This document shows positions 40,778 to 63,385 of a DNA stretch of 64,000 nt, piece after piece. The stretch is taken from assembly GCA_023256475.1 (NCBI GenBank), contig JAGDXP010000024.1:24070-88069 (forward strand). Reading direction: 5' to 3'. Both the position numbers and the translations under genes were made by a program. Each line of letters starts with the position of its first letter. Within the stretch, counting starts at the first letter, position 1. The notes below the pieces were generated by a model. It was not told the origin of the DNA. It did not search any database and worked only from the letters and a program-made list of their open reading frames with translations. The stretch comes from Thermoplasmata archaeon (GTDB taxonomy: Archaea; Thermoplasmatota; Thermoplasmata; Thermoplasmatales; GCA-001856825).

Positions 40778-41863
40778 TTAAATTCTATTATAGATCTTTC
40801 CCATTGAAGCCGTTGTTATCTTACCATATGGGTATCTTATTGGTATCTCTAGAGAGAATCCAAATTCCATGAGCAATGACATATATGCAATTATGCCAAA
40901 GGCCAGGGATTCCCTGGCATCCCACGGAACTCCCATATCATCTGACATTCTTATTTCCTTATTCAACAAAATCTCCAATTTTTCTATTATGCCTCTGTTC
41001 TTACAACCTCCTCCTGCGCATATTATTTCCATATCCCTCCAATTTTCAACGAATCCAGCTATATTCTTATAGATGGCATAAGCGGTGAAATATGCTAAAG
41101 TTGCAATTATATCCTTTTTATCTGGATTATTACCTTTGGAATATTCCACAATTCTTTCAAAGAATTTCTCACCATACCTTTCCCTTCCCGTACTCTTGGG
41201 CGGCTTCTTTGATATGAAGCTATCTCTCTTCAAGATTTCAAATAGGTCCTCCAAGACTCTCCCTTCTGAAGATAATTTTCCATCTTCATCAATGTCTTTT
41301 CTGAAAAATAATCTCATGGCTTGGTCCAATAGCATATTTCCTGGGCCGCAATCAAAACCATAAGGCTTGTCACCAGTTACTGTTATATTTGAAATGCCAC
41401 CTATGTTTATTATAATCTTATTTTTACCATAGATTATGGAATCTGCATATGGAACCAGTGGAGCTCCCTGATTACCAGCTGCTATGTCCGAATACCGCAA
41501 ATCCGACACCATGGGAATTTTGAAGCTGAAGTTGAGAAGAGTGACATCGCCAATCTGAAAGGTAATCTTCTTTGGACCATTGTGATAAATTGTGTGACCA
41601 GAAAATACACCGAAATCGCAATCGATATTCTCTCTTTCATAGATCTCCTTTAAAAGCTTACCTATTTCCCAGTGCATTTTAGCCAGCTCTTCCTTATCCA
41701 CAATCCTTGATTCTGCAATATTGAGTAACTTTCTTTTAATCTCTTTACTGTATGGTTCATGCCCTGTTTTCATAATCTCATATTTAAATTTCCTATCGAT
41801 ATTGAATATAACATAGGAAATCCCATCTGTTGAAGTACCTGACATGGCAGAAAAAATCCTCAT
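40778..41863 (-). CDS. anmK: Anhydro-N-acetylmuramic acid kinase
   Basis: AnmK hydrates and phosphorylates 1,6-anhydro-MurNAc to MurNAc-6-phosphate. Family motifs are present: RIFSAMSGTSTDGISYVIF, GHTIYHNGPKKITFQIGD, NQGAPLVPYAD, INIGGISNITV, FDCGPGNMLLDQAM and CAGGGCKN. Start is the ATG at 41863 (MRIFSAMSGTS); an ATG six codons earlier is less likely. Anhydro-MurNAc comes from bacterial lytic transglycosylases, so a wall-less archaeon should meet it only as an external nutrient. Its product is the substrate of the MurQ encoded 16 kb away. Confidence 0.9.
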   Translation of the reverse strand: MRIFSAMSGTSTDGISYVIFNIDRKFKYEIMKTGHEPYSKEIKRKLLNIAESRIVDKEELAKMHWEIGKLLKEIYERENIDCDFGVFSGHTIYHNGPKKITFQIGDVTLLNFSFKIPMVSDLRYSDIAAGNQGAPLVPYADSIIYGKNKIIINIGGISNITVTGDKPYGFDCGPGNMLLDQAMRLFFRKDIDEDGKLSSEGRVLEDLFEILKRDSFISKKPPKSTGRERYGEKFFERIVEYSKGNNPDKKDIIATLAYFTAYAIYKNIAGFVENWRDMEIICAGGGCKNRGIIEKLEILLNKEIRMSDDMGVPWDARESLAFGIIAYMSLLMEFGFSLEIPIRYPYGKITTASMGKIYNRI

Positions 41864-41969
41864 GCAGTTAGAAGTTATCACGAATTCATTAATTTTGTCT
41901 CAGCTTAGATTATTAGAAATTCAAAATATCAATGAAAATATTGATTTCCCTGTTTCAAATTAATATACT

Positions 41970-43337
41970 ATGGATTCAGGAAGATTCATGCAAATAGGAA
42001 TTTACCCCAACGATATGGAAAAAACCAAATCACTTCTCAGGAAAATAAAGCCGGTTTCTGTGATTATAATGGGAAACGAATTTTCAAACCTTGAGGAGCT
42101 TAATGGTTTAATCAAAATGATAAATGAATTTTACATGAAAGAATTAAAATTGAAAGAGCCGCTCATAGCGGTGGATCAGGAAGGAGGAAACGTAGCAAGA
42201 TTGAGGGATATTAACTATTCCCCTGGAAATTATCTTCTAGGGAAATTGGACAACCCAAAATTCACCTATTATGCGGGAATGGCAACGGGATATGAATTAA
42301 GAAACCTCGGATTTCATTGGAACCTTGCACCTGTTTTGGATGTCATAAACAATACTGACAATTACATAGTGATGGAAAGGTCCTTCGGGGATAATCCTGC
42401 AAAGGTTGCAGCTCATGGATACAACTTTATACTTGGAATGCAAGAATACGGAGTAGCAGCAACTTCAAAACATTTCCCTGGACATGGTTCAGTCATGGAG
42501 GATAGCCATGTGACCCTACCTGTTGACAGAAGGCCCATGCAATCTATTCTCAACACCATGTATCCATTTATAAAGTCCATAGAGGCAGGTGTGAAAAGCA
42601 TCATGATGACCCATATTGTCTTTCAGTCCTTTGATGTGGATTATCCGGCATCACTATCCAAAAAGTGGCATGATTTCCTTAGAAATGATTTAAACTTCCG
42701 AGGAATAATAATATCAGATTCCATGGACATGAAGGCCATAAGAAACAACTTCAATCCTAGAGAAATAGCAAAGTTATCATTTGCCGCTGGCGTGGATGTC
42801 ATAGAATGTGTTGACCCCGATTTAGCATTGGAAATTCATGAGAACCTGGAAAATGATTTGAGCGATAATAGTTCGAGACTAATGAGGATCGAGGATTTGT
42901 ACATAAAGAACACGAGCAAAGTAAGGCCTCCTCCTGAAGTTATGGAATGGATTTCATCCAGAGCACCAACCTGGTTTAAGGAGCTCAAGCTTGATCCCAA
43001 TTTTCCGATTCAAATTTACAATTTATCACCATCCAAATACATGGTACCCATACTTGAAAGAATTGTTAATGATTTGAAATCAAATGGAATGGAGGCATTC
43101 ATATCTCAGGACGAGGGGGCTTCGAAGCAAGTTATATTAGTTGGAAAGAATCTTCACATTAATGGCAACTTCAAAAAAATAAATGATCTGTGTAAAGGAA
43201 AAAGATGTGTCTACCTTTCTACGGGAGTGCCCGTTGATACTGGGTTGCTAACGGAAGAGATAGGCTACATTAACTCTGGTGGCGATAAATATGAGAATAT
43301 CAAAGCATCAATTTATTCCATACTAGGTTTTTACTAA
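41970..43337 (+). CDS. nagZ: GH3 beta-N-acetylglucosaminidase (NagZ-like)
   Basis: A 455-residue glycoside hydrolase family 3 enzyme: LIAVDQEGGNVARLRD, the catalytic loop KHFPGHGSVMEDSHVTLP (with the His that serves as acid/base in the NagZ type) and the nucleophile Asp in IISDSMDMKAI. No signal peptide, so it works in the cytoplasm on imported GlcNAc-MurNAc fragments. The C-terminal ~120 residues (after IYNLSPSKYMV) are an extra domain. A TATA-like TTAATATAC ends just before the ATG; the ATG at 41988 would be a leaderless start, but residues before it align with the family opening. Confidence 0.88.
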   Translation: MDSGRFMQIGIYPNDMEKTKSLLRKIKPVSVIIMGNEFSNLEELNGLIKMINEFYMKELKLKEPLIAVDQEGGNVARLRDINYSPGNYLLGKLDNPKFTYYAGMATGYELRNLGFHWNLAPVLDVINNTDNYIVMERSFGDNPAKVAAHGYNFILGMQEYGVAATSKHFPGHGSVMEDSHVTLPVDRRPMQSILNTMYPFIKSIEAGVKSIMMTHIVFQSFDVDYPASLSKKWHDFLRNDLNFRGIIISDSMDMKAIRNNFNPREIAKLSFAAGVDVIECVDPDLALEIHENLENDLSDNSSRLMRIEDLYIKNTSKVRPPPEVMEWISSRAPTWFKELKLDPNFPIQIYNLSPSKYMVPILERIVNDLKSNGMEAFISQDEGASKQVILVGKNLHINGNFKKINDLCKGKRCVYLSTGVPVDTGLLTEEIGYINSGGDKYENIKASIYSILGFY

Positions 43338-43399: not shown

Positions 43400-44428
43400 C
43401 TAGTCCATGAAAAGGTATTTCTTTCTTTCCGCAGGTTCAATTTCGCTTATTTTTGAATTCAACATTCTCCTTAATTCATTAATTTTATCATGATCCACAG
43501 CATATCCTTTATTCTTTAGATTCATCACTATTGATCCTATGACCGCCTCGTAACCAAAAAATGGTTCCAGCATTTGAGAATCTGGAATTCTGCTCTTCAC
43601 ATCATTGAATATCATATCAACATACCATTTACCAGACCTGAAAACACCTCCGTACCCGCTGATTTTTATCCCTGCTGGTTGGTTTAATTTGTTGTATGTT
43701 GAATATATGGTTCTAACAGATTCCTCCGCAGCTTCTTTCATTATGTCTAAAGCCATAGGGTCATTTTTTGAAGCCAGGTTTGAAACTAATGGAGCGATGG
43801 ATGCAATTTCCCTTATGTCAATCTTGGCTTTATAGACCTTGTTTATTATTGCCCTTTCCTCTTGAATTCCATAAAATTCCTTTATCCTGTTTGGCAACTG
43901 GCTTTCATTGTACTTCTCCTTGCCAGTTCTTCCATCCCAGACTTTTACGGATTCCTGCAATGCCCTCTTTCCTATGAAGAATGCTCCACCTTCATCGCCA
44001 AGAAACCACCCCCAGCCCGAAGATCTTACTTTCTTATCCTTCCAGATTCCGTAAGAAACCATTCCAGTTCCCGGTGCGAGTATTATTCCCTCTCCCTCGG
44101 GGAATCTGCAAAAGAATGCCGCTTCGCCATCATTGTAAAAATCCATCTTCTTGAATCTCAGTACTTCATTTATGTTCCTTACAATGAGGTCAGTAGATTC
44201 CCTGGAATCCTTTATACCGGCAAGGGCAAAAGTTGCTAGATCAATTTTTTCCACATCCACATCCCTTATAGCCTTTGAGACCACTGATTTAATGTTCCTC
44301 TTAAAATTTCCAATTCCAATATTTCTAAAATTAGATGGACCTCCAACTGAAACCCTGAAAATTTCATTTTCATCATAAAGCGCGGCAACTGTCTTAGTGG
44401 CCCCACCATCTACTGATAGGTACAGCAT
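43400..44428 (-). CDS. Amino-sugar kinase of the BadF/BadG family (MurK/NagK-like)
   Basis: A 342-residue ASKHA kinase: phosphate-1 motif YLSVDGGATKTVAALYD, LAPGTGMVSYGIWK, the glycine-rich WFLGDEGGAFFIGKRAL and adenosine loop IKISGYGGVFRSG. In this family GlcNAc kinases are common, and Clostridium MurK phosphorylates both GlcNAc and MurNAc at O-6. The surrounding NamZ, NagZ, MurQ and NagA genes support such a dual role here: it would supply MurNAc-6P to MurQ and GlcNAc-6P to NagA. The exact sugar is inference. Confidence 0.8.
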   Translation of the reverse strand: MLYLSVDGGATKTVAALYDENEIFRVSVGGPSNFRNIGIGNFKRNIKSVVSKAIRDVDVEKIDLATFALAGIKDSRESTDLIVRNINEVLRFKKMDFYNDGEAAFFCRFPEGEGIILAPGTGMVSYGIWKDKKVRSSGWGWFLGDEGGAFFIGKRALQESVKVWDGRTGKEKYNESQLPNRIKEFYGIQEERAIINKVYKAKIDIREIASIAPLVSNLASKNDPMALDIMKEAAEESVRTIYSTYNKLNQPAGIKISGYGGVFRSGKWYVDMIFNDVKSRIPDSQMLEPFFGYEAVIGSIVMNLKNKGYAVDHDKINELRRMLNSKISEIEPAERKKYLFMD

Positions 44429-44615: not shown

Positions 44616-45491
44616 CTAAGTCAAATTCTGTTGCCAGGTGGCACTCAATGATAAATTGCTTATGTAAACCGGAACATTCAATTGAGAGCCAAGACTTTCG
44701 TCAAAGTAGTACATCTGATTGAAAGGCTGGCTTGAATATCCTAAACCCACAACTACGAGTCCAAGGGACTTGAAATAACTAACCCTCTGTTTTAGAGTTA
44801 AAATTTGAGTTGAATTCAGGTATGCATAAGTTGACGAATTAAAATCATAATAAGAGCCAAAATCCTCATACATGACGAAATTGATATACTTATTAATGTA
44901 AGGGATTACGGGAAAACCACGGTTAACCCCTATTATTATGGAAGGAAAGTCTTCCCTCACATATGAAATAATGTTAATGAAGCCCTGCAATTCCCATGGA
45001 TATTGCTCCACTACATCAAGATCATCAAATAATACTCCGTTGAAGCCCAAAGATATTGATTGATTGACCATGTAAATTATGAAATTTTTCCAGATAGGTG
45101 ATGAAACATTTACTATGGTCTGATTCCAGTTGCTATCATATCCAATGGCTATGGATGACACATTTATGCTATAATTTCCTAGTACAGTTCCATCAAATTC
45201 CCCTAAATCAATATAGGCTATCTTTAAGGGCCTGATTTCAGTTAAATTTTGATGGCTGAATATGTCAGGTTGAATTATGACCATTGAAAAATTGTTCAGG
45301 TATGATATTATTGATTCGTTCACCACAGATCCATAATAAACAGAGAAATTCCTAACGTTCAAGTTAACTTTTGATACTGATATTTTGTTTATATCATTTG
45401 AATGATGAGAAATGATGATAAAAGATAGGGCAGTGCCTGATAATATCAATAATGAAATAACCAGAGTAAGTGCTTTATCTGGCTTTTTCAC
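44616..45491 (-). CDS. Secreted GH114-like glycosidase
   Basis: A 291-residue protein with an N-terminal signal or anchor helix (ALTLVISLLILSGTALSFII). The rest shows a TIM-barrel pattern of the glycoside-hydrolase 114/TM1410 group: VVIIQPDIFSHQ-like strand, IAYIDLGEFDG, LGFNGVLFDDLDVVEQY with paired acidic residues, and a C-terminal YSSQ/ YFDES region. GH114 members cut alpha-1,4-galactosamine chains; others are unassigned. It may trim extracellular amino-sugar polymers before import. Start is GTG at 45491. Low certainty on substrate. Confidence 0.65.
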   Translation of the reverse strand: MKKPDKALTLVISLLILSGTALSFIIISHHSNDINKISVSKVNLNVRNFSVYYGSVVNESIISYLNNFSMVIIQPDIFSHQNLTEIRPLKIAYIDLGEFDGTVLGNYSINVSSIAIGYDSNWNQTIVNVSSPIWKNFIIYMVNQSISLGFNGVLFDDLDVVEQYPWELQGFINIISYVREDFPSIIIGVNRGFPVIPYINKYINFVMYEDFGSYYDFNSSTYAYLNSTQILTLKQRVSYFKSLGLVVVGLGYSSQPFNQMYYFDESLGSQLNVPVYISNLSLSATWQQNLT

Positions 45492-45597: not shown

Positions 45598-47421
45598 TTA
45601 CTCCTTCTCTTCCTTTTCTTCTGTGTTCTTTGACTTTCCCCTCTTCGAAGCTACATAAGCAACGGGTACTGCTATTATTATAATAACAACAACAGCAATG
45701 ATCGCAATTGTCATTCCGGAAATTCCTGGAGTGGATGTGGTGGTATTATTGTGGGAAGATGTAGTGGTAGTGGTTGTCGTGGATGTTGTTGAAGGTACGC
45801 TTATTGATAGGAGATTTATTATACCAATTGGGGTATCAGTGGTCTTGAACCCCGTTATCTTCTGCGAATTGTATGCATAGTAATTACCGATATCACCAAT
45901 TGGAACCATTGGAACCTGGTTTGCAATTATATACTGCGCCTTGAACAGGAGGTTAAGCATTCCAGTATAGTTTGTTGTCATGGTGAATGTTTCGTTCAAT
46001 ATTTGGTTAACTGTAGCATTTGACCAGTGAGTAATATGTTTGTCCCAGAAGCTTTTGTAACTATATAGGTCCCATAGCACGTACCATGGATTTGAAAAGG
46101 ACGGTGTTGCTCCGAAGTAGCTCAATTGTGTCCAATTCTTTGTTGCAAATATGTCTGTAGCCCATGTACCTATGGGTATTACTGAATATGTGACTGAGAA
46201 TCCTATGGATGACAGATCGTTGGTTATTAATGATGCGGCAGTCATCCAATCCGATATGTCTGGCTCTATTATGGTTAGCTTAACGAGGGTTCCATTTGGG
46301 TAATACCAGAATCCGCCTTTCTGAACCAACCCTGCCATCTTGAAGTAATTTATTGCTTGTGTTGTATTGTAGTGATAATATGGCAAATTAGGTGCCCACC
46401 ATGAGTAATTTGTCCATGGTTCTCCACCAAATGATGGTGTTCCTCCAATTCCATCTTCGGCTTTCTGCATTATTTCCGTCTTATTAATAGCATAAGCTAG
46501 GCCGATCCTAAAATCAGTGTTATTGAATGGGGCTACTTGTGTGTTATCCCATAGGAAGTATCCCCAAGGCATCTTATATATCACGTTGACCACATTTGGC
46601 ATTGACTTAAGTGCATAATAATCGCTTATGGCTGGATACTCTGCATCAATTTGTCCGTTTTCAAATGACAATGTCATAGAAGAGGTTGATTTGAATGGCT
46701 CGATTATGAGTGTTGCAACATGTGGACTTCCAAGCCAGAAGTGTGTGTTTGCTGTAAATGTTAATGCAGATTCAGTAACAGATTGAAGCAGGAAAGGACC
46801 TGCCTGAATTTCATGTCCAATATCAAGGTTTGTATATGAACCGATCTGTGAAATGTTCTGAACGTAGGTTCCCCATACTGCTGGTATTATAGGCTGTGTT
46901 GAAATGTATGTTAATGCCATAACTGTTGGAGATGTGAGGGTGAATTGTACTGTGTCGTTGTTCAATGCAACTACACTCTTAAGGAATTTATGCACACCAT
47001 AGGCATCCAGTGTAGTATTGGTTGTTATCACCTTGAATGTGAATACTACATCATTCGCAGTAATCGGACCTACTTCCGTTGTACCATTGAACCATTCTGC
47101 ATTTGGATTCAAGTAGAATGTGTAAACCGTTCCATTAGAATTCACTGAATAGTTCTCTGCCAAATATGGAACCAGGCTACCATCCGATAGTGAGTACAGA
47201 AGTGTTGGGTACATAATTCCTGTTGCTTCTCCCTCAAGATTTGTAGCAGTCAATGGATTCAGAGATGTTACCGGAGTTGATACTGGCGTGCCCCAAATAA
47301 AGGTTCCTGTTGGTGCTGACTGTGCGTGCACGGGCAGCATAAACGCCATTGGAACCAATATCATGAGGCCGACCGCCAAAAAACTAAGCAATACTTTCTC
47401 CCTTTTATTAAATTTTAACAT
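45598..47421 (-). CDS. Extracellular solute-binding protein, family 5 (peptide/oligosaccharide ABC transporter)
   Basis: A 607-residue binding protein: signal region VLLSFLAVGLMILVPMAFML, family-5 segments ENYSVNSNGTVYTFYLNPNA and DFRIGLAYAINKTEIMQKAEDG, then a Thr/Ser-rich linker (TTSTTTTTTTSSHNN) and a C-terminal membrane helix with a charged tail. This anchored layout is usual for archaeal binding proteins. The matching permease and ATPase genes lie 4.5 kb away on the other strand (51972-55808); binding of muropeptides or anhydro-muropeptides is inference from the cluster. Confidence 0.85.
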   Translation of the reverse strand: MLKFNKREKVLLSFLAVGLMILVPMAFMLPVHAQSAPTGTFIWGTPVSTPVTSLNPLTATNLEGEATGIMYPTLLYSLSDGSLVPYLAENYSVNSNGTVYTFYLNPNAEWFNGTTEVGPITANDVVFTFKVITTNTTLDAYGVHKFLKSVVALNNDTVQFTLTSPTVMALTYISTQPIIPAVWGTYVQNISQIGSYTNLDIGHEIQAGPFLLQSVTESALTFTANTHFWLGSPHVATLIIEPFKSTSSMTLSFENGQIDAEYPAISDYYALKSMPNVVNVIYKMPWGYFLWDNTQVAPFNNTDFRIGLAYAINKTEIMQKAEDGIGGTPSFGGEPWTNYSWWAPNLPYYHYNTTQAINYFKMAGLVQKGGFWYYPNGTLVKLTIIEPDISDWMTAASLITNDLSSIGFSVTYSVIPIGTWATDIFATKNWTQLSYFGATPSFSNPWYVLWDLYSYKSFWDKHITHWSNATVNQILNETFTMTTNYTGMLNLLFKAQYIIANQVPMVPIGDIGNYYAYNSQKITGFKTTDTPIGIINLLSISVPSTTSTTTTTTTSSHNNTTTSTPGISGMTIAIIAVVVIIIIAVPVAYVASKRGKSKNTEEKEEKE

Positions 47422-47584: not shown

Positions 47585-48964
47585 ATGGATCTAATTGAAT
47601 TTTTTGAAAGAAAGAATATAAACTTCCTTAGTAAAAGAGAAGAGATGATTCCTTATGTAAAAGATGCTTCATACTTTCCAGGAAGTTTACCCAGGGCTGT
47701 TGTTTTACCCAAGGACGAAAATGAAATCTCTGAAGTCTTAAGTAAATGCAATGAAGAGAATGTTAAGGTTGTAACTAGGGGAGGTGGGACATCCCTAACT
47801 GGGTCATCAGCATCCATACAGGACTCCATTGTAATTAGCACATTGCGACTCAACAAAATATTGGATTTTTCTGGAGGTGACAGGTATGTGCACGCTCAGG
47901 CCGGCGTTAGAATCGATGATCTGAATGGATTCCTACAGTCCAAAGGATTTGTGTATCCGCCTGACCCTGCAAGCTCCTTGGCCTCTACAGTAGGAGGAAC
48001 TATATCCACAAATGCTGGGGGATTAAGGGGCACCTATTATGGTTCCACAAAGGAATGGGTTCTAGGTTTAGGTGTTGTACTTGCTGATGGAAAAATAATT
48101 AAGACTGGTGGCAAGGTTTTAAAGAGAAGTATTGGATACGATTTGACCTCGATCTTTATTGGTGCTGAAGGTACATTGGGAATTATCTATGATGCCTATC
48201 TTAAAATCGTTCCAAAAATAGAAAGGTTCCAAAGGTTACTGGCATTCTTTAATAAACCAGAGGATTTGGGTAAAGCAGTATTCCAATTAAAGGATAGAGG
48301 TCTGAACCCATTGGGGGCTGAATTTGCCGATAAAATTTCCATGAATATAATTTCAAGAATTTCCGGCATATCAATACCCTCTGGATCAGAGATGCTATTG
48401 ATATTGGATATTCCCATACAGGAAGTGAATGAATATGAGAAAGCTCTTAGCATAATAAAAGAAGTGAACCCAATTGACGTTAAGATTTTAAACCAAACTG
48501 AATCAGAGTTGGTCTATAAGGCACGCAAAGGCCTATATTCCGCGTTATTAAATGAAAGGGAAAGGGAGGGTGAGTTCATTATTATAGGGGATGTAGTGGT
48601 ACCCTCATCAGAAGTTCCAGAAAGCCTGAAGGAGATACAGGAATTGATTAAAAGATTCGGGTTAAAGACCTCTTTATTTGGCCACATTGGAGATGGGAAC
48701 ATTCACGCCAACATCTTTACCAATTTAAATTCAAAGGAAGAAATGGAAAAGGCTGAGAAATTTTTGGAAGAGTTGGGAGATGTTGCCCTAGCGCACCATG
48801 GATCTGTCTCAGCCGAACATGGAATCGGATATGAAAAGAAGAACTTGCTGATGAAGGAATTTATGTATAAGAATAGCCCTACTAACTTGGACCTCATGAA
48901 ATCCATAAAGAGGATTTTTGATCCCAACAATATATTGAATCCGGGGAAGGTATTTGATTTATGA
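47585..48964 (+). CDS. FAD-linked D-lactate/glycolate oxidase subunit (GlcD type)
   Basis: A 459-residue VAO-family flavoprotein: FAD site VVTRGGGTSLTGSSA and ASTVGGTISTNAGGLRGTYY, substrate/His region FGHIGDGNIHANIF, and C-terminal AEHGIGYEKK. D-lactate dehydrogenases and glycolate oxidases share this fold. The partner iron-sulfur subunit starts in the same stop (four-base overlap). MurQ releases D-lactate, so oxidation of that product is the likely job in this cluster. Confidence 0.85.
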   Translation: MDLIEFFERKNINFLSKREEMIPYVKDASYFPGSLPRAVVLPKDENEISEVLSKCNEENVKVVTRGGGTSLTGSSASIQDSIVISTLRLNKILDFSGGDRYVHAQAGVRIDDLNGFLQSKGFVYPPDPASSLASTVGGTISTNAGGLRGTYYGSTKEWVLGLGVVLADGKIIKTGGKVLKRSIGYDLTSIFIGAEGTLGIIYDAYLKIVPKIERFQRLLAFFNKPEDLGKAVFQLKDRGLNPLGAEFADKISMNIISRISGISIPSGSEMLLILDIPIQEVNEYEKALSIIKEVNPIDVKILNQTESELVYKARKGLYSALLNEREREGEFIIIGDVVVPSSEVPESLKEIQELIKRFGLKTSLFGHIGDGNIHANIFTNLNSKEEMEKAEKFLEELGDVALAHHGSVSAEHGIGYEKKNLLMKEFMYKNSPTNLDLMKSIKRIFDPNNILNPGKVFDL

Positions 48965-51915: not shown

Positions 51916-51971
51916 TTATTAAAGGCTCTCAATTGATAAATTTATTATGCAATATTCCCATCAAGATTTGT

Positions 51972-54825: not shown

Positions 54826-54830
54826 TAAGA

Positions 54831-55808
54831 ATGGATTCAATTGTTGAACTCAGGAATGTAACCAAAATTTTTACCAATACGCAGGGAATAATAAAGAGAA
54901 AGAAGAGGACTGTTTACGCTCTACATGATGTTAATTTGTCTATAGGTGAGAAAGAGATACTTGGATTGATTGGGGAAAGCGGCTCTGGAAAGACAACTTT
55001 AGGCTTAGCTGTCTTAAAACTCTTGGACCTGGAAGGAGGTGAGATACTATTCAGGGGTAAGGATATTTTAAACATGAAAAAGAAGGAAACTTTCAGGTTC
55101 AGGGAAAAGACAGAAATGATATTCCAGGACCCTTATGGCTCTCTTAATCCGGTGCAATCAGTTTACAAAATAATATCTACACCTTACAAGGTTTTCAATA
55201 AAAATGCCAAGGAGAGAGATGTTATTGAAAGGGTAATTGATACGCTTGAAATGGTTGGATTAAATCCTCCGGAACAATATCTGGCAAAATATCCTAATCA
55301 ATTAAGCGGTGGCCAGAGGCAAAGGGTTGGTATAGCAAGAGCAATCATAACGAACCCTGAATTCTTAGTAGCAGATGAGCCTGTTTCCATGCTTGACGTA
55401 TCCCTTAGGGCAGATGTATTGAACATTCTGTTGGAACTAAGGGAAAAATTGGGATCTTCAATGTTGTTCATATCCCATGATATTGCTGTCACCCAATATG
55501 TTTCAGACAGGATAGCTGTAATGCATCTGGGACAAATTGTTGAAATTGCAGAGTCTACTGAACTAGTCAACAATCCCCTTCATCCATATACGCAGACCCT
55601 TATCAGCTCCATTCCCATACCGGACCCTGAAAGGAGATGGGATACTTCAGAGCCAAAGGTTCTGGCTGGAGAATACGTTAATGAAGGAAAGGATGAGTGC
55701 AGCTTTGCAAATAAATGCCCCTTTGTTATGGATAAGTGCAGGAGATCCAGGCCTAAGATGATAGAGAAGGGGAACAAGCACTATGTAGCCTGTTATCTCT
55801 ATGAATAA
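54831..55808 (+). CDS. ABC transporter ATP-binding protein (DppF type)
   Basis: A ~325-residue ATPase: Walker A GLIGESGSGKTT, Q-loop MIFQDPYGSLNPVQS, signature QLSGGQRQRVGIARA, Walker B LVADEPVSMLD, and C-terminal HPYTQTLISSIPIPDP followed by a Cys pair. ATG at 54831 (MDSIVELRNVTKIF), five bases after the upstream stop. Last gene of the importer operon; its 3' end overlaps the convergent NamZ gene by 10 bases. Confidence 0.92.
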   Translation: MDSIVELRNVTKIFTNTQGIIKRKKRTVYALHDVNLSIGEKEILGLIGESGSGKTTLGLAVLKLLDLEGGEILFRGKDILNMKKKETFRFREKTEMIFQDPYGSLNPVQSVYKIISTPYKVFNKNAKERDVIERVIDTLEMVGLNPPEQYLAKYPNQLSGGQRQRVGIARAIITNPEFLVADEPVSMLDVSLRADVLNILLELREKLGSSMLFISHDIAVTQYVSDRIAVMHLGQIVEIAESTELVNNPLHPYTQTLISSIPIPDPERRWDTSEPKVLAGEYVNEGKDECSFANKCPFVMDKCRRSRPKMIEKGNKHYVACYLYE

Positions 55809-56857
55809 ATCAAGAATTTCTTCCTGATTTCATTGAATTTTTCTATATCGTAATTCCATTTCTCTAAAATTTCCTCGTATTGCACTGATCCGCCAACATA
55901 ATCATAAATTATATTGTCTCCTAGCAGGATATCCATTTTCTTCTTGTTTATCTCCAATCTACCATAGGATTTCATTATATCAAATACCAGCCTGAATGGG
56001 TCATATTTTGACCTGTCCATTATGTGGATGTAAAAACCGTCAATTAACTCGCCCGAATACAGTGAATACATGGGTCTGAATTTAACATGTCTCAGCTTCA
56101 CCCCTTCAACACTTGTTTCCACTTTTTCCAAACCCGGAGCTCCGAATTGCATGAATGGGGATGGCGTTCCTCTTCCAACGGAAATATTCGTAGCTTCCAA
56201 TAGGCAAAATGCCTGATAATTTATAACTGATTCCACCGTGGGGAGGTGAAGGGAAAGAGGTACATAGAAGTTTAAGGCTTCATCATGTAACATTTTCCTT
56301 GCATAGCCTTCCATCCTCTCTACTGTAACTTCAGCATTTATTTTCCTGTTGAAAAACAATGCGATTTCACCAGGTGTCATTCCATATTTTATGGGAATGG
56401 TATCTATCCCGACGAAACTTAAATTGCTCTCTGGCAACAGAGGTCCGTAAATTTGATCTGCCCCTATTGGATTTGGCCTATCCAGTATAATCATCTCTAT
56501 CCCTTTCTTCTTTGCGCTTTCCATAACCAGCTTCATGGTAGATATATAAGTGAAATATCTTACCCCTGCATCCTCTATATCATACACTATGGCATCTATT
56601 TCATCCAGATCTTCATCTCTAGGTGATTTCAAGCTGCCATAAAGTGATCTTACTGGAATACCTTTAATGTGAGAATCACCTACGCTCTCCCCGTCCAGCA
56701 TGGTTCCATATAGGCCCTGTTCGGGGGTAAAAATTATGGAAATATTCTGCATTCTTTGGAAATTGTAAATTAAATGGGAATCAACGCCCGTTGCATTGGT
56801 TACCAGTGCAATTTTACCATATTTATTCCTAAATTTGTCAAGGCCCAGCCTTATCAT
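55799..56857 (-). CDS. namZ: Exo-beta-N-acetylmuramidase NamZ (DUF1343)
   Basis: NamZ removes terminal MurNAc (with or without peptide) from the non-reducing end of wall glycans. The sequence matches DUF1343 throughout: IALVTNATGVDSHL, FTPEQGLYGTMLDGESV, IVYDIEDAGVRYFTYISTM, ILDRPNPIGADQIYGPLL, KYGMTPGEIALFFN and EATNISVGRGTPSPFMQF. About 352 aa with no signal peptide, so it should be cytoplasmic, unlike the secreted bacterial form. It lies head to head with the AmiE-like gene, 37 bases apart, mirroring the namZ-amiE linkage of Bacillus. Confidence 0.9.
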   Translation of the reverse strand: MIRLGLDKFRNKYGKIALVTNATGVDSHLIYNFQRMQNISIIFTPEQGLYGTMLDGESVGDSHIKGIPVRSLYGSLKSPRDEDLDEIDAIVYDIEDAGVRYFTYISTMKLVMESAKKKGIEMIILDRPNPIGADQIYGPLLPESNLSFVGIDTIPIKYGMTPGEIALFFNRKINAEVTVERMEGYARKMLHDEALNFYVPLSLHLPTVESVINYQAFCLLEATNISVGRGTPSPFMQFGAPGLEKVETSVEGVKLRHVKFRPMYSLYSGELIDGFYIHIMDRSKYDPFRLVFDIMKSYGRLEINKKKMDILLGDNIIYDYVGGSVQYEEILEKWNYDIEKFNEIRKKFLIYS

Positions 56858-56877: not shown

Positions 56878-56894
56878 ATCACCAATTGCATTAT

Positions 56895-57956
56895 ATGGAT
56901 TGCGATTCTAAAATCTTGAAAAATTACAGAATGGCAGCAATGGGGTATTCACTTCTGGTAAACTATAAGGGGGAAGAGGTTTTGAGTTGCTATGATGGAT
57001 CCATACCCGATTTAGGATTCAGATATACATCTCAAACGGTTTACGATCTTGCATCCCTGACTAAAGTTCTAGCTACCCTCCCACTGACCTTAATACTTCT
57101 GGATAGAGATGAAATTACCCTCAAAGATTCAATTTCTAGCCTCAACCTCTTCACGGAATTTAAAAACATAGGGAAATTGACAATTGAAAATTTACTAACC
57201 CATACATCTGGAATGATTCCTGACAAACCACTTTGGAAGATTGGCAAAGATAGATATTCTTACCTTAAAGGGATTGATGAAGAAGCTGAAAGAGCCATTC
57301 CCTACACACAGGAATGGTACTCTGACCTGAATTTTATTTTACTCGGTTTTGTTCTTGAGGAAATATATGGAAAGAGCCTTGATAGAGCATTCAGGGATGA
57401 AATCGCTCTGAAACTGGGACTTAAATATACAACTTTCAATCCTGATTTTGATAAATCCATTATTGCTCCAACAGAAAATACCCCGGACCGCGGCTTGGTA
57501 TGGGGGAAGGTGCATGACGAGAAGTCTTATTACATTGGCGGAATCGCAGGTCATGCCGGGCTTTTCAGCAATGCTGAGGAGATCTCAAAGCTTGTTTTTT
57601 CCATGATGGATGAAACACTATTTTCCCAATCAACTTTCCTTCTTTCCACAGAAAACAGAAATAAATATGTCGGCGGTATTTTTGGCCTCGGATGGATGAC
57701 AAAGACCGAAAGGCCCAACAACCCAAGCAAGTCATTTGACCTCTCGGGATTTTTTGGTGATTATACACCATTTGGGTCCATAGGCCATACAGGTTTCACA
57801 GGAACATCTCTATTGGTGGACCTTGAAAATGAGATTCAGGTTATACTACTTACTAACAGAGTTTATCCAACAAGGGAAAATGAAGGACACATAAGATTCA
57901 GGAGACTGGTACATAATTCAATCTACAGATCACTTGGGGTTGGACCCTTTCAGTAA
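56895..57956 (+). CDS. Beta-lactamase-fold serine hydrolase, probable N-acetylmuramoyl-L-alanine amidase (AmiE/YbbE-like)
   Basis: A ~353-residue class C beta-lactamase-fold enzyme: SxxK is SLTK (residues 54-57), the second motif is YSD in EWYSDLNFILLGFVLEE, and the third is HTG in SIGHTGFTGTSLLV. No signal peptide. In Bacillus subtilis a protein of this fold, AmiE/YbbE, cleaves the peptide from MurNAc and is encoded beside namZ and nagZ; the same neighbours occur here, which supports that role. A D-Ala peptidase or esterase cannot be excluded. ATG at 56895 is supported by the TATA box; TTG at 56886 is ignored. Confidence 0.75.
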   Translation: MDCDSKILKNYRMAAMGYSLLVNYKGEEVLSCYDGSIPDLGFRYTSQTVYDLASLTKVLATLPLTLILLDRDEITLKDSISSLNLFTEFKNIGKLTIENLLTHTSGMIPDKPLWKIGKDRYSYLKGIDEEAERAIPYTQEWYSDLNFILLGFVLEEIYGKSLDRAFRDEIALKLGLKYTTFNPDFDKSIIAPTENTPDRGLVWGKVHDEKSYYIGGIAGHAGLFSNAEEISKLVFSMMDETLFSQSTFLLSTENRNKYVGGIFGLGWMTKTERPNNPSKSFDLSGFFGDYTPFGSIGHTGFTGTSLLVDLENEIQVILLTNRVYPTRENEGHIRFRRLVHNSIYRSLGVGPFQ

Positions 57957-58748
57957 TTTCAAGGCCTCAGGTATATTATAGTTGACTTCTTCCAAAATTT
58001 TTTTAGCACTCTCTTCACTTGCCCCAGCCTTGTCCATGAGTATTCTGACAGCCCGATTCTTGAGCTTTTCGTTGTAGAATGCCTTCATGTGGGTCATAAC
58101 ATTTCCATCTGTCCTTCCCAGTTTTATCGCTATGGCAGTACTTATAATATTTAGGGTCATTTTCTGTGAAGTACCCGCTTTCATCCTGGTTGAGCCCTGG
58201 ATAACCTCCTCACCAGTATCCAGAATGATGCTGTCCTTGGAAATTTTAGTAACTTTAGAGTCCCTGTTGTTTGTAATTGATGCTGTATAAGCGCCAACAT
58301 AATTTCCGTACTCTATGGCTGCGATTACAAATGGAGTCCTTCCTGATGCTGTTATTCCGATTACAGCATCCTTTTTATTTAGGTCATAACTCTTTAGTTC
58401 TTCTACAGCTTTTTCCATGTTGTCTTCAGCACCTTCCTGGCTCCTGGCCAGTGCCTCCTTCCCGCCTGCCATCACATAATAGAAAATGTCGGTGATTCCA
58501 TAGGTTGGTTCAAGTTCTGCCACATCCTGTGCTGCAATCCTTCCACTGGTACCAGCACCTACATAGAAAACCCTTCCGCCCGCAACAACATTTTCATAAA
58601 TTGAATCTATAACTCTGGCAATGGATTCCTTTGCGCAACCAACAGCCTCATAAGCCCTAATGTCCTCAATATGGATTGTTTCAACCATTTTCAATGTATC
58701 CATCTTGTGAATTTCTCTTGTCCTTGTGTTGTTGTCTTCAGTCCCCAT
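57930..58748 (-). CDS. murQ: N-acetylmuramic acid 6-phosphate etherase
   Basis: MurQ splits the D-lactyl ether of MurNAc-6P to GlcNAc-6P and D-lactate. The 272-residue SIS protein has FYVGAGTSGRIAAQDVAELE, GGKEALARSQEGAEDNME, GITASGRTPFVIAAIEYGN and GEEVIQGSTRMKAGTSQKM, matching the bacterial family closely, plus a C-terminal helical UBA-like part. Last gene of a four-gene minus-strand operon; overlaps nagA by 11 bases. This is the defining enzyme of MurNAc catabolism. Confidence 0.95.
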   Translation of the reverse strand: MGTEDNNTRTREIHKMDTLKMVETIHIEDIRAYEAVGCAKESIARVIDSIYENVVAGGRVFYVGAGTSGRIAAQDVAELEPTYGITDIFYYVMAGGKEALARSQEGAEDNMEKAVEELKSYDLNKKDAVIGITASGRTPFVIAAIEYGNYVGAYTASITNNRDSKVTKISKDSIILDTGEEVIQGSTRMKAGTSQKMTLNIISTAIAIKLGRTDGNVMTHMKAFYNEKLKNRAVRILMDKAGASEESAKKILEEVNYNIPEALKLLKGSNPK

Positions 58749-59868
58749 CTATACCCTCAACCTCCCGATACCTATCGTCTCTAATTATTCCCTTCAAATT
58801 GAATTGCGAATCGAATACATTCATTCTACCATAATAATTGACATCAATGAGGCCATGCTTAATTCCCATTATCCTGGAGGGGTTCACAGTTAATGCACTC
58901 AGAAAATCCTCCGGTTTAAACCCTATGGAAATCATGTTCTTGAGAGCCTTATCTAGAGTAAGAGTGCTTCCCGCTATGGTGTCTGTGCCTTTGATCTTTG
59001 CCACACCGTTCCTGACTTCTACATCAAGTTCCCCAAGTTTGTATTCTCCATCGCCCATTGATGTGGCTGAAATGGAATCGGTTATCATCACTATATTTTC
59101 CAGTCTTTTGCATTTGAAAATCAGTTTTATTGTTTCTGGTGCTAGATGTACTAGATCTGTTATGACTTCAACATTTACATCATCAAGAACAAGAGCCTCC
59201 CCTACTAGGCCAGGATCTCTATGATGGAATGGTCTCATGGCATTAAACAGATGTGTTACATGTCTGGATCCGGCTTTAAAGCCTTCAACACATTTTTCTG
59301 TCTTACAGTCAGTATGACCAATGCTAAAGATTATTTTATCATGGAAAGATTCGATCATTTCTATTGCTCCGTCCAATTCAGGTGCTATATCAATAATTTT
59401 CAGTGCATCCCCATAATTTGATACCAAATCCTCAACAGGGAACTCGCGTGGTGGAATGAGGTTTTTAGGATTGTGAGCACCCTTCTTATTCATGGATATC
59501 AACGGGCCTTCCAATCTTCCACCAAGGATGCTTCCCCTGGGAATTGAATATTTTACATTTTTAAGAAAATTCTCTATCACTGGAATTGGTGCCGAGACAA
59601 TTGTGGGAACGAAAAATTGAACCCCGTGCTTTAACAGCAGCTTTTCCCATATCTTAAAATCGTCATATGTAGCTGTAAAGCTGTCTATCCCCATTATGCC
59701 GTGAGTGTGAATGTCCACAAATGAAGGGGTCAATATGGAATCACCAAAGTCTATGCAGTCATGGCATTCGTTGAATGATACATCGGCAATTCTATCCCCT
59801 TCAACTTGTATAACAAAATCCTCAATTATCTTTGTTCCAGAGTAACCTCTCCTGAAAAAATACTTCAT
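58738..59868 (-). CDS. nagA: N-acetylglucosamine-6-phosphate deacetylase
   Basis: Removes acetate from GlcNAc-6P to give GlcN-6P. A 376-residue amidohydrolase: metal motif PSFVDIHTHGIMGIDSF, GGRLEGPLISMNKKGAHNP, metal ligands in FSIGHTDCKT and HVTHLFNAMRPFHHRD, and the catalytic Asp in MITDSISATSMGDG. Overlaps murQ by 11 and the deaminase gene by four bases, so the three are one translation-coupled unit. Confidence 0.93.
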   Translation of the reverse strand: MKYFFRRGYSGTKIIEDFVIQVEGDRIADVSFNECHDCIDFGDSILTPSFVDIHTHGIMGIDSFTATYDDFKIWEKLLLKHGVQFFVPTIVSAPIPVIENFLKNVKYSIPRGSILGGRLEGPLISMNKKGAHNPKNLIPPREFPVEDLVSNYGDALKIIDIAPELDGAIEMIESFHDKIIFSIGHTDCKTEKCVEGFKAGSRHVTHLFNAMRPFHHRDPGLVGEALVLDDVNVEVITDLVHLAPETIKLIFKCKRLENIVMITDSISATSMGDGEYKLGELDVEVRNGVAKIKGTDTIAGSTLTLDKALKNMISIGFKPEDFLSALTVNPSRIMGIKHGLIDVNYYGRMNVFDSQFNLKGIIRDDRYREVEGIDGD

Positions 59869-60830
59869 TTAACCACCTTGGATAGCTTGGAGGGGCTATC
59901 CGGATTCATTCCCATGGAAATTGCATGGTAATAACTTAAGAGCTGCAGGGCCATGAGTTTTCCCAGATGAATATTGATCTCCTCCTTTGAATCTATAAAT
60001 ATTTCATTGGCAGGATCGTTTCCAACCACAATTGGATGGGCATCATATATTGCCACCTTTTTCTCTATTTCTGGGTTGGTGCTAAGCATTATTACGCTCC
60101 ACTCTGAGCTTAGTATCTGTATGGGGCCATGCAAAAACTCCCTCTCGGGGTAATGGTAGGTTATGGCTTCAGAAGTCTCCTGGAGCTTCAATGCCCCTTC
60201 CATGGCCAGCGGATAATTCATTCCCGTGCCAAGAAGTACAGCCTTATTTCCCATCTTTTCAGCAAAGAATTTTATGTTCTCATTTTCCAGAACTCCCTGC
60301 AAAACATCTTTAGAGTGATCAAACTCCCCTTTCTCCAAAATGGATAGAGATATCAAGGTCTGTGCGAAATGGCTCTTTGTTGCAGCGATCGACTTCTCCT
60401 CCCCTGCCCCACCATCGAAGTGTGCATCCGTCAATCTTGCAAGGCTGGAATTGGGATAATCAGTTATGGAGATTGTTTTGGAACCCGCACTTTTCAATAT
60501 TTCAGCAGCTCCGAGGATATCTGAACTTTCCCCCGAATGGCTGAACAATATGGATACATAATTGGAAAGGTCCAGACCTTTTAGATACCTTACTTCTGAA
60601 GACTGTATGGTATGAGAAAGCAGTCCCTTCCTCATCAATACATAATTTAGCAGAACTGATGCATTATAGCTTGTCCCACTCCCTGTAATAATGACCTTCT
60701 TATTCTTTACCATGGACCAAAGTTCGCTCCCTATGCCCCTATAATAATCCTTTTTCTGGGTTAACTTCAAATTTTCCTCAATCTCTTCCTGCATATGCAT
60801 CTTCAGATTCCCCCTTATTTTTTCCTCCAT
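59865..60830 (-). CDS. SIS-domain glucosamine-6-phosphate deaminase/isomerase (NagB-II/GlmD type)
   Basis: Two SIS domains in 321 aa (ITGSGTSYNASVLLNYVL and VLLGTGMNYPLAMEGALKLQ), ending PDSPSKLSKVVK like the GlmS isomerase tail, without a glutaminase domain. Such proteins deaminate GlcN-6P to Fru-6P, closing the pathway. The ATG at 60830 overlaps the amidase gene; the ATG at 60800 (MHMQEEIEENL) has a G-rich Shine-Dalgarno-like site 10 bases before it and may be the true start. Confidence 0.85.
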   Translation of the reverse strand: MEEKIRGNLKMHMQEEIEENLKLTQKKDYYRGIGSELWSMVKNKKVIITGSGTSYNASVLLNYVLMRKGLLSHTIQSSEVRYLKGLDLSNYVSILFSHSGESSDILGAAEILKSAGSKTISITDYPNSSLARLTDAHFDGGAGEEKSIAATKSHFAQTLISLSILEKGEFDHSKDVLQGVLENENIKFFAEKMGNKAVLLGTGMNYPLAMEGALKLQETSEAITYHYPEREFLHGPIQILSSEWSVIMLSTNPEIEKKVAIYDAHPIVVGNDPANEIFIDSKEEINIHLGKLMALQLLSYYHAISMGMNPDSPSKLSKVVK

Positions 60831-61996
60831 CTATTGTAAAGTATTATGGAGGCAACAACTATTATTATTGCTCCTCCTACAAAGTACATGATGATGTTGC
60901 TTCCTGAATTTTTCAATTTACTTGGAGAACCTATGGTATAGTTAGCATAGGCGGTTCCATTGGAGCCAGTGACGGAAAGAGAGACTGTGTAGCTTGAGTT
61001 TGATAGTGATGTGGTGAATACCTGATTTGTAGATACCAACTTACCATTTATCCGCCATTCATAGGTATAATTTCCAAATCCAATACCTCTGGGGAATGAT
61101 CCTACAAAAGTAATTTCCTTGTTGAAATTTATCTTCGAGCCAGTTATATTGACGCCATCCTGGAGTATTGTGATCCTTACTTCTTTCTTACTGTTGAAAG
61201 GGAATGTGGGAATGCTCAGGTAGATTGAAGATACATTCTCGCCATTGAGGGTTAAAACATTCAGAGGTCTTAATGTTCCATTGGGAGATGAGAGATAAAG
61301 TGTGGTTGAAATATTGTCGTCATAACCTGGCAAATAGCTCCATATGTCTGCGGGATCGGTCTGGACTACATCGTTGTTTCCAATGTAAAGCATCGCGTGC
61401 CCGTCCCCCACGCCTCCATCCATTACAACGTCCCCGGGCCATATGATGTATGACGGCAGTATTGAATCGTTTGTCACATAGAAAACTGCAGCGTGTGGAG
61501 ACCCCAAATAACTTGCTGGAATCGGCTGGTAGCCAATCAGACCTTCGATTGTGGAATTGGTGGAAATTATAGGGAGCACGTATCCTGCAAGCCAATCAGC
61601 TAACCTGTATACCCCAACAATTCCGTATGAACCCGGAAATCCGGAACCATAGTTCGTGAGGTTGTCACCAGGTGGATTTTGAGCTAAATATGTCAAACCT
61701 CCGGCTATTAAAGCTTCAGAAACAAAATGTGCACAATCTTCGGAATTGAAATAATCAAGATTTTTCTGCATAACCGAATAATTGAGACCCGATGGATAGT
61801 ATTCTTTGTGTAAGTATTGATCATGAACCATGAGTGCATATTCAATTGCTCTGGAAGAATTATAGTTGGGGATATAGGAATAAAGAACGTTGCTTGGACT
61901 TCTATTATCTAGATTTGTATAATAGGTTCCGTAAATTGAAAATCCTAAGACCATCATCATAGAAAAAACAATAATTATAGGTGTCCGCATCCGCAT
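60815..61996 (-). CDS. Secreted, membrane-anchored amidase (Amidase_6/NlpC-like), probable wall hydrolase
   Basis: A 393-residue secreted protein: N-terminal signal helix (IIIVFSMMMVLGFSIYGTYY), then a putative cysteine-amidase domain with nucleophile Cys88 in FNSEDCAHFVSEALIAGG and His200 in GDGHAMLYIGNND, matching PF12671-type amidases. A beta-rich domain follows (~240-350, PKD/Ig-like), then a C-terminal helix (NIIMYFVGGAIIIVVASII) and basic tail. As first gene of the nagB-nagA-murQ operon it probably cuts peptide bonds of bacterial wall outside the cell. The ATG at 61990 is an alternative start. Confidence 0.75.
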   Translation of the reverse strand: MRMRTPIIIVFSMMMVLGFSIYGTYYTNLDNRSPSNVLYSYIPNYNSSRAIEYALMVHDQYLHKEYYPSGLNYSVMQKNLDYFNSEDCAHFVSEALIAGGLTYLAQNPPGDNLTNYGSGFPGSYGIVGVYRLADWLAGYVLPIISTNSTIEGLIGYQPIPASYLGSPHAAVFYVTNDSILPSYIIWPGDVVMDGGVGDGHAMLYIGNNDVVQTDPADIWSYLPGYDDNISTTLYLSSPNGTLRPLNVLTLNGENVSSIYLSIPTFPFNSKKEVRITILQDGVNITGSKINFNKEITFVGSFPRGIGFGNYTYEWRINGKLVSTNQVFTTSLSNSSYTVSLSVTGSNGTAYANYTIGSPSKLKNSGSNIIMYFVGGAIIIVVASIILYNRWRKK

Positions 61997-62068
61997 ACAT
62001 TAGAAATATATAATTTGCTTATAACATTATCTTTTCTCTGAGTCTTATTATATGTATTGATTGAAGAA

Positions 62069-63385
62069 TCAATAGTAATGGAGTTCAATTGCATCTGTAT
62101 TCCCTCTTATAACTAATATCATTACCGCTATTAGCGCTGATGTCATCAATGTTAGATATAAGTAAGATACCATTATCATGCTATAAAAGTCTCCATAGAT
62201 TGTAAGAATAATCGTTGTTAACAGTATTATTGTTGACGCTAAAATTATTGAAATTCCAAGATTATTCTTTTCACCTAATACGTGTTTTAGGTAAGATACA
62301 TTTGAGACTATATGGACTGTAAGATAGAAAAGAGAAACTAAACCCGTTACTATTACAAATCCAGTAAAACCATTGTTATAAATGTATGAAATTATCAAAA
62401 TGGAAATGCTTATTATAAATGCAGATAGTATTGTATCTCTGCTCCTTAATTTGTGTAGAATTCTATCATTTCCCATCTTGGCGATGGCATTCCGCCATGA
62501 ATTCAAATAAGCAAGGCTGAGATTGATGGAACTCAATACAGAAAAAAATACAACTAGATAGAATGCAAAAGACCCAAAGCTTCTATTTATTATTTCTAAT
62601 ATTGCATAAGGGTTCGAAGCATAAATGTAAATGTTCATTCCAAGAAATTTAATTATGGAATATGCGGAAAAAACCATAAGGAAACCTGAAACCAGATAGG
62701 CATTTAATATTCCCTTAGGTACATTTTTCTTGCTGCCATTAACGTTTTCCGATATGAATAATGAGGATCCAAGGCCTGCAAACATCAGCAATGAATAAAG
62801 CATTGCCACCCAGAATCCCCAGGAATTAATTGGGGTACTTCTTATAGCTGGTATAGCACCTTGGCCTTCTATTGACATTATCAAATCCAGAATAATTAGA
62901 AATGAGATTTCTAGAAGAGTAAGATATTTCAGATAATTAATGGTAGAGTTAAATCCTCTGATTACAATTAAAACGGTTATTATTGAAATTAAAATTGTCA
63001 GAGGAAGTGCTGTTGAGATACCAAAGACAAAATCTAACAGGGTGAACTGGAACAGTGTGATGGAAGGAAAGGCCAATAGGCCATAAATAGAATATAACAA
63101 TGAGGTGAAAACTCCAGCTCTTTTTCCTAAGTAGATACCAGCTACTGTATAATAACCCCCATTGGTTGTAAGATGTTTCGAAACTTTATATGGCATATAA
63201 ATGTTTAAAACTGTTATTATAAAAGCCAGGATAGCTGCATAGAGTATATATTGGCCTATCAAACCAGCTATTACTGAAAAGAGGCCAATAACATTTAACA
63301 TAGGACCAACAGCAGCTAAGGACTGTGAAAACGGTTTTAGTACTTCTGACCAGCTGTCCTTCACTAGGGTGAATTTAAACGGCAT
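62069..63385 (-). CDS. APC-superfamily amino-acid permease
   Basis: A 438-residue polytopic carrier with about 12 helices, including LNVIGLFSVIAGLIGQYILY and YAAILAFIITVLNIYMPYKV near the N-terminus. It lacks the consensus residues needed to name a substrate. It lies 72 bases upstream of the amidase gene on the same strand; it could take up amino acids freed from wall peptides (D- or L-Ala, Glu, DAP), but it may have its own promoter. Confidence 0.75.
   Translation of the reverse strand: MPFKFTLVKDSWSEVLKPFSQSLAAVGPMLNVIGLFSVIAGLIGQYILYAAILAFIITVLNIYMPYKVSKHLTTNGGYYTVAGIYLGKRAGVFTSLLYSIYGLLAFPSITLFQFTLLDFVFGISTALPLTILISIITVLIVIRGFNSTINYLKYLTLLEISFLIILDLIMSIEGQGAIPAIRSTPINSWGFWVAMLYSLLMFAGLGSSLFISENVNGSKKNVPKGILNAYLVSGFLMVFSAYSIIKFLGMNIYIYASNPYAILEIINRSFGSFAFYLVVFFSVLSSINLSLAYLNSWRNAIAKMGNDRILHKLRSRDTILSAFIISISILIISYIYNNGFTGFVIVTGLVSLFYLTVHIVSNVSYLKHVLGEKNNLGISIILASTIILLTTIILTIYGDFYSMIMVSYLYLTLMTSALIAVMILVIRGNTDAIELHYY

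Follow-up and report, generated by a model that had tools for sequence, protein, structure and literature searches.

The 64,000-nucleotide stretch of a Thermoplasmata archaeon genome analyzed here (the window) carries at positions 39447–63385 an island of genes which, together with a second cluster elsewhere in the genome (contig C18), very probably encodes an importer and the enzymes for the catabolism of foreign peptidoglycan to fructose-6-phosphate, D-lactate and amino acids. The window belongs to the 99,775-base contig C17 in a genome of 1.39 Mb (28 contigs, 89% complete). Protein families were assigned by Pfam and NCBIfam profile searches against the cut-offs of the models, with 21 island proteins being scanned with Pfam (Table 1). 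The families AnmK, glycoside hydrolase 3 (GH3), BadF-type kinase, Dpp-type importer, peptidase S13, NamZ, AmiE, MurQ and NagA, all named in a first-pass annotation of this DNA, were confirmed in this way. The catalytic motifs were intact where checked, i.e., SxxK/SxN/KTG in S13, KHFPGHG-DSH in GH3, GAGTSGR and EGAED in MurQ, CGPGN in AnmK as well as SLTK and HTG in AmiE. The matches of the GH3 protein in the PDB include YbbD/NagZ and other hexosaminidases. A strongly hydrophobic N-terminal stretch is missing in NamZ, GH3, AmiE and S13 (Kyte-Doolittle maxima 0.68, 0.71, 0.49, and 0.15), in agreement with the earlier suggestion of cytoplasmic forms of normally secreted enzymes, and it is present in the binding protein, the GH114-like protein and the surface hydrolase (2.2–2.6).

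From the genes with their families and motifs, their clustering and their co-inheritance, we infer the import of muropeptides, each enzymatic step and the use of the fragments as food. A surface-anchored NlpC/P60-like hydrolase would nick wall peptides outside the cell, and the family 5 binding protein with OppBCDF would import muropeptides. In the cytosol, NamZ and the NagZ-type enzyme may split the sugars and AmiE may release the stem peptide, with AnmK and the BadF kinase yielding the 6-phosphates of N-acetylmuramic acid (MurNAc) and N-acetylglucosamine (GlcNAc). MurQ would then deliver GlcNAc-6-phosphate and D-lactate, NagA and the SIS-domain protein would lead on to fructose-6-phosphate, and the GlcD/GlcF pair would oxidize the D-lactate. 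The stem peptide is predicted to be trimmed by S13 and then cut by a YkfC-like NlpC/P60 peptidase, while L-Ala-D-Glu would be epimerized to L-Ala-L-Glu, D-Ala-D-Ala split by DppA and diaminopimelate (DAP) decarboxylated to lysine.

The window by itself does not warrant the earlier description as complete: the Pfam scan of the 21 island proteins revealed no epimerase, gamma-D-Glu-DAP peptidase, DAP decarboxylase or DppA, and members of these families are encoded on C18. They were traced via families recurring as neighbors in relatives, namely SH3 plus NlpC/P60, DAP decarboxylase, DUF218 and GNAT. An SH3-NlpC/P60 gene, an epimerase-like gene and a DAP decarboxylase stand side by side at C18 27222–30392, the former two at 27222–29140 (SH3_16 42.6 and NLPC_P60 84.5 bits; MR_MLE_C 177.6 bits for the epimerase) and the latter with 311 bits to TIGR01048 (cut-off 297.9). 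The best NCBIfam model for the epimerase is L-Ala-D/L-Glu epimerase, with 274.6 bits under a cut-off of 500, and its KxK and DxD motifs are present. A DppA-family D-aminopeptidase (PF04951, Peptidase_M55, 276 bits) is encoded at C18 73353–74168. The families of the bacterial ykf/dppA set, i.e., SH3 plus NlpC/P60 peptidase, epimerase and D-aminopeptidase, are hence all present in the genome, with the substrate-level NCBIfam models remaining under cut-off.

Across 101 genomes of the order, NlpC/P60 occurred in 23, all of them among the 47 genomes with a match to LysA (p 5e-10), 37 of which are above the cut-off. Leaving out G395, whose LysA is a 21.6-bit fragment, 22 of the 23 NlpC/P60 genomes and 46 with LysA are retained (p 1e-8). 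Cluster-type epimerases (>400 bits) were found in 13 genomes, each with NlpC/P60. M55 peptidases matched in 11 genomes, two of them weakly, and eight of the nine strong carriers also feature NlpC/P60; in G434, a strong M55 was accompanied by no NlpC/P60 in this search. What may be a peptide-only version, with NlpC/P60, M55, DAP decarboxylase and epimerase together, was seen on contig 173 of G392 (4425–8937). DapB was not found in the 89% complete genome of the island, and in the order it occurs in 13 of the 101 genomes and in seven of the 47 with LysA, leaving 40 without it. Because DAP decarboxylase is present while DapB was not found, the gene content suggests that DAP comes from outside. 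This need not be so in G093, G329 and G370, the carriers of DapB among the 11 order-level genomes discussed below. For Cuniculiplasma, a member of the same order, the lack of a complete lysine pathway is reported (PMC5155288).

In 389 genomes of the phylum (155 genera), NamZ and full-length MurQ were each detected in 14 and jointly in 13 (Fisher p 3e-22). By genus, nine carried NamZ and nine MurQ, with eight in common (Fisher p 1e-11). Full-length MurQ was defined by more than 220 bits, as 14 genomes scored 224–354 bits and the next one listed 46. MurQ as a phylum-wide trait was considered and rejected: 259 of the 389 genomes match TIGR00274 at E 1e-3, but the scores drop from 224 to 46 after 14 genomes, and the weak matches are taken as other SIS-domain proteins. 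NamZ and MurQ share a stretch of about 15 kb in 11 of the 13 double carriers, the exceptions being the fragmented assemblies G019 and G028 with the two genes on different contigs. AnmK matched in eight of the 389 genomes, comprising five full-length proteins and three weak fragments.

As proposed in the first-pass annotation, the locus was compared across Thermoplasmatales, and most of the set recurs in 11 order-level carriers (10 of the 13 double carriers plus G414), for which stretches around the clusters were fetched. All 11 feature MurQ, NamZ, GH3 and BadF, and 10 each feature S13, NagA and AmiE (the latter including G329 and not seen in G093). The SIS protein and an amidotransferase-fold protein occur in seven each (a half-length frame of the latter in G414), the surface hydrolase in six, AnmK in five (on another contig in G104) and GlcD/GlcF in three. 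The sugar core is steady among the carriers, with the import, AnmK and D-lactate parts varying, and the gene order is shuffled from genus to genus. In G230, about 22 kb unite SBP-OppBCDF (SBP, solute-binding protein), surface hydrolase, GH3, NamZ, NagA, BadF, AmiE, SIS, AnmK, MurQ and S13 with the amidotransferase-fold protein, DppA, NlpC/P60 and DAP decarboxylase; no epimerase was found close to this cluster. Nearly all parts except GlcD/GlcF are contained in about 27 kb of L003, a Candidatus Thermoplasmatota record which is the same contig as G414:C17. Accordingly, the idea of a unique island was rejected, NamZ, MurQ and the locus recurring in relatives. What had been regarded as an unusual assembly in one archaeal locus does have an archaeal host, and instead of a one-off it is a trait that several Thermoplasmatota have in common, with the genes reshuffled. 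Besides, six genomes of the order encode a DUF218 protein within or close to the cluster (L116, L118, L120, L123, L124, and L198). Outside the phylum, a metagenome-assembled genome of Brockarchaeota (L030) contains NamZ, MurQ and a BadF kinase and one of Sulfolobales (L008) NamZ, AmiE and a BadF kinase, with NamZ near BadF in both.

Regarding the origin of the genes, the order is represented in the MurQ tree by 12 rows from 11 genomes, which group in a single clade (100/99), other archaea being placed among bacteria; a single archaeal clade was not rejected (p-AU 0.139). This tree comprised 31 rows, 29 of them different, and its 12 bacterial rows came from NamZ-bearing loci only, representing a biased sample. 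Likewise, all nine order-level AmiE rows fall into one clade (SH-aLRT 100; 52 matches, 51 rows). A quick tree of NamZ (104 matches, 10 duplicates dropped, 94 rows) revealed two separate groups within the order, for which reason NamZ probably entered the order at least twice. With the narrow bacterial sample, the simplest reading of these trees would be that the core was acquired once and long ago, followed by a replacement or second gain of NamZ and by losses. As further observations on NamZ, two different genes, one from each group of the order, are located about 5 kb apart within a single cluster of G093 (L118 and L119), and the protein of the present genus and its near relatives (P0002–P0007) features PEQG adjoining the invariant Glu, versus PEHG in most aligned relatives.

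The assignments are not equally firm. Within the proposed pathway, certainty is lowest for the kinase step because AnmK ties with levoglucosan kinase in comparison to solved structures (127 bits for AnmK, 126.5 for levoglucosan kinase) and the BadF protein falls between hexokinase (2e2n, 89.6 bits) and a MurNAc/GlcNAc kinase (8zo3, 84.3 bits). For MurK of Tannerella, the choice of MurNAc is reported to be linked to the small size of residues lining the lactyl pocket (PMC10465942). The SIS protein as glucosamine-6-phosphate (GlcN6P) deaminase and the GlcD/GlcF-like pair as D-lactate oxidase, both claimed at first pass, are predicted at the level of the family, with the scores staying below the specific models (Table 1). 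The supposed secreted amidase features a signal-like N-terminus and matches Amidase_6 only weakly; it rather looks like a surface protein of the NlpC/P60 type. Its sequence profile gave nothing meaningful against the PDB, no NlpC/P60 chain was among the best 50 Foldseek matches, and such chains were found by a second comparison with VIA-align only; in Pfam, it showed no wall-binding domain and only weak PKD-like and Amidase_6 matches. The class II glutamine-amidotransferase-fold protein, overlooked at first pass, belongs to the set as well. It adjoins S13 or is one gene off in six of the seven genomes having it, its Cys2, Asn113-Gly114 and Asp135 are invariant in six aligned sequences, and its sequence profile matched 1te5 (E 0.009). 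With regard to fold family, residue conservation and position, it is proposed to act on the stem peptide by hydrolyzing gamma-glutamyl or amidated bonds.

The assumption of a catabolic locus has to be weighed against its own weak points and against other explanations. It speaks against this assumption that the activities of the enzymes are predicted from sequence and that the binding protein with OppBCDF occurs in eight of the 11 order-level carriers. A bacterial or mis-binned, chimeric contig could be suspected, as the assembly is incomplete with 28 contigs and the core families are mainly familiar from bacterial species. Nevertheless, the same contig encodes an archaeal/eukaryotic-type DNA primase large subunit (PF04104, 102 bits), the sister genome G386 keeps the gene order of the island except for the GH114-like gene, which was not seen at the matching place, and the order-level MurQ rows form the single clade mentioned above. 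Contamination is very unlikely because two carriers with most of the set, G230 and G093, are single-contig genomes and the MurQ of G046 from the same order is identical to P0193, a protein named Picrophilus oshimae in its source. On the strength of this identity, the order is regarded as Thermoplasmatales. The genes could also serve other amino sugars from chitin, glycoproteins or bacterial exopolysaccharide, with Mur-type enzymes having drifted to such substrates. The tie of AnmK with levoglucosan kinase and the one secreted GH114-like gene would fit this explanation, as would the involvement of NagA, SIS, GH3 and BadF enzymes in the utilization of GlcNAc as well. Still, peptidoglycan fragments are the sole common substrate of MurQ, NamZ, AmiE, S13, epimerase, DppA, NlpC/P60 and DAP decarboxylase, which tend to travel together, so that a function in the use of other amino sugars appears decidedly improbable.

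Recycling-type enzymes might further belong to an archaeon that makes its own murein-like wall and recycles it. This is to be regarded as extremely improbable, since the single match of Mur_ligase_M in the genome is FolC (TIGR01499 347.7 bits, cut-off 162.65) and neither a transpeptidase nor DapB was found in the 89% complete genome. Searches for wall-building genes covered Mur ligases and transpeptidases, with MurA, MurB and MraY not being searched, and revealed none; in that scope, the earlier notion of using a foreign wall rather than building one is upheld, and the gene content supports that fragments would not be re-used in wall synthesis by the same cell. Moreover, Thermoplasmatales are described as mostly lacking even an S-layer, Picrophilus excepted (PMC12448462; PMC5155288). 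The label "wall-less" fits most of the order, but an S-layer is present in Picrophilus (PMC5155288). Attack as the main function, with the surface hydrolase killing bacteria and feeding being secondary, would agree with a predicted secreted and anchored NlpC/P60-like protein and with published archaeal hydrolases which kill bacteria (PMC12352652). Yet, most of the locus is predicted to serve import and breakdown in the cytosol, for which a weapon would have no use, the hydrolase was seen in only six of the 11 order-level carriers and no Pfam wall-binding domain was found in it. This function is consequently considered unlikely as the principal one.

Catabolism of foreign peptidoglycan, the favored explanation, has well-known bacterial counterparts. 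The MurNAc catabolic cluster of Bacillus subtilis consists of murQ-murR-murP-amiE-nagZ-namZ. The island resembles it by uniting the MurQ, AmiE, NagZ and NamZ families (41970–58748, repeated in relatives) with GlcNAc-6-phosphate and D-lactate as predicted products, and differs from it by the archaeal host, by hydrolases without signal-like N-termini and by an Opp-type ABC importer and kinases in place of a phosphotransferase system (PTS) transporter. Neither the PTS transporter MurP nor the regulator MurR was among the 21 island proteins in the Pfam scan, the rest of the genome not being searched for them. The stem-peptide operons ykf/dppA of Bacillus comprise an SH3-NlpC/P60 peptidase, an L-Ala-D/L-Glu epimerase, DppA and Opp components. 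The archaeal set features the same types of protein; in contrast, relatives combine it with the sugar half and with a DAP decarboxylase, DapB mostly not being detected. Recycling of anhydro-MurNAc in Gram-negative bacteria employs NagZ, AmpD, AnmK and MurQ. Predicted cytosolic NagZ and MurQ as well as a candidate AnmK are likewise present in the island, whereas no own wall to be recycled was found and an AmiE-type amidase occurs instead of AmpD. A further difference is the ABC importer, although such import is reported for Agrobacterium with YejBEF-YepA (PMC9790009). The nearest archaeal precedent are peptidoglycan hydrolases that kill bacteria, with Thermoplasmatota among their carriers (PMC12352652). 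Both cases concern archaeal enzymes aimed at foreign peptidoglycan; the published hydrolases are modular, feature wall-binding domains and are read as weapons, whereas the island is predicted to take up and catabolize fragments. The surface hydrolase of the island differs from these weapons (PMC12352652) in combining a signal-like N-terminus and an NlpC/P60-like fold with no recognized wall-binding domain.

No paper on archaeal peptidoglycan catabolism was found among the matches listed in the literature searched, subscription papers being mostly outside its coverage; archaea as consumers of bacterial peptidoglycan are not described there, the published link being killing by peptidoglycan hydrolases. 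Each enzyme family is already known from bacteria. It is moderately probable that some Thermoplasmatales are wall-eaters with a full pathway from murein to central metabolism (fructose-6-phosphate, pyruvate, and amino acids), using wall DAP as a lysine source via a DAP decarboxylase without biosynthetic partner and a new N-terminal nucleophile (Ntn)-type amidohydrolase acting on the stem peptide. If so, archaea would gain a role in the recycling of bacterial necromass in acidic habitats, and the lysine supply of lysine-auxotrophic Thermoplasmatales could be explained. A long bacterial pathway would have stayed together following its transfer, and enzymes that are otherwise secreted would occur as cytosolic forms. 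As the pathway would be common to Picrophilus, a genus available in culture, it would be directly testable.

Table 1. Genes of the island, with window positions and the evidence for each assignment (scores in bits).
Feature	Position	Strand	Evidence
MFS (major facilitator superfamily) sugar-transporter-like protein, left edge of island	39447..40718	-	Sugar_tr 58, MFS_1 52; kept in G386 (90%)
AnmK, predicted 1,6-anhydro-MurNAc kinase	40778..41881	-	PF03702 220 (cut-off 24); CGPGN and SGTSxDG motifs
GH3 NagZ-type beta-N-acetylglucosaminidase, without signal-like N-terminus	41970..43337	+	PF00933 217.5 (cut-off 27); KHFPGHGSVMEDSH motif
BadF-family amino-sugar kinase, predicted MurNAc/GlcNAc kinase	43400..44428	-	PF01869 108.7 (cut-off 31.5)
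GH114-like protein, predicted secreted	44616..45491	-	PF03537 E 0.006, under cut-off; N-terminal hydrophobic stretch
Family 5 extracellular solute-binding protein, predicted membrane-anchored	45598..47421	-	PF00496 184 (cut-off 32.4); hydrophobic N- and C-terminus
GlcD-like FAD subunit, predicted D-lactate dehydrogenase	47585..48964	+	PF02913 183.6 (cut-off 21.2), PF01565 142.5; glcD 375.6, below cut-off 567.9
Fe-S/CCG partner subunit of GlcD-like enzyme	48961..50133	+	PF02754 54, Fer4_8 47
S13 (PBP4-like) D,D-peptidase, without signal-like N-terminus	50123..51127	-	PF02113 100.5 (cut-off 22.8); SxxK 28, SxN 182, KTG 285
Class II glutamine-amidotransferase-fold (Ntn) protein	51184..51915	+	PF13230 22.6, just under cut-off 23
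OppB/DppB-type permease	51933..52970	+	PF00528 124
OppC/DppC-type permease	52967..53863	+	PF00528 74, OppC_N 36
OppD-type ATPase	53860..54825	+	PF00005 93, oligo_HPY 79
OppF-type ATPase	54807..55808	+	PF00005 102, oligo_HPY 60
NamZ, predicted exo-beta-N-acetylmuramidase (GH171), without signal-like N-terminus	55799..56857	-	PF07075 (NamZ_N) 193 (cut-off 26.9), PF20732 (NamZ_C) 114.7 (cut-off 25)
AmiE-like serine amidase (beta-lactamase fold), predicted N-acetylmuramoyl-L-alanine amidase	56886..57956	+	PF00144 136 (cut-off 27); SLTK and HTG motifs
MurQ, predicted MurNAc-6-phosphate etherase	57930..58748	-	NF003915 305 (cut-off 168); TIGR00274 261, below 302; solved MurQ 180.7
NagA, predicted GlcNAc-6-phosphate deacetylase	58738..59868	-	TIGR00221 246.2 (cut-off 225.65)
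SIS-domain protein without glutaminase half, predicted GlcN6P deaminase	59865..60830	-	PF01380 88.8; GlmS 139, NagB-II 94, GlmD 86, all under curated NCBIfam cut-offs
Predicted surface-anchored NlpC/P60-like hydrolase with PKD/Ig-like domain	60815..61996	-	Signal-like N-terminus; Amidase_6 weak (E 0.008)
Amino-acid permease, outside pathway chemistry	62069-63385		Last gene in range

Further features were recognized in the surroundings of the island. A tRNA-Asn gene (39356–39430), a common spot for gene integration, lies directly at its left edge, and a degradative-type 3-hydroxy-3-methylglutaryl-CoA reductase (480 bits, cut-off 260) is encoded at 27266–28531 of the window. A Cas1-containing region is also located on the contig of the island; in this part (L085, C17:88070–99775), the neighbors of the Cas1 gene resemble type III CRISPR subunits by eye, with some unread bases in the frames.

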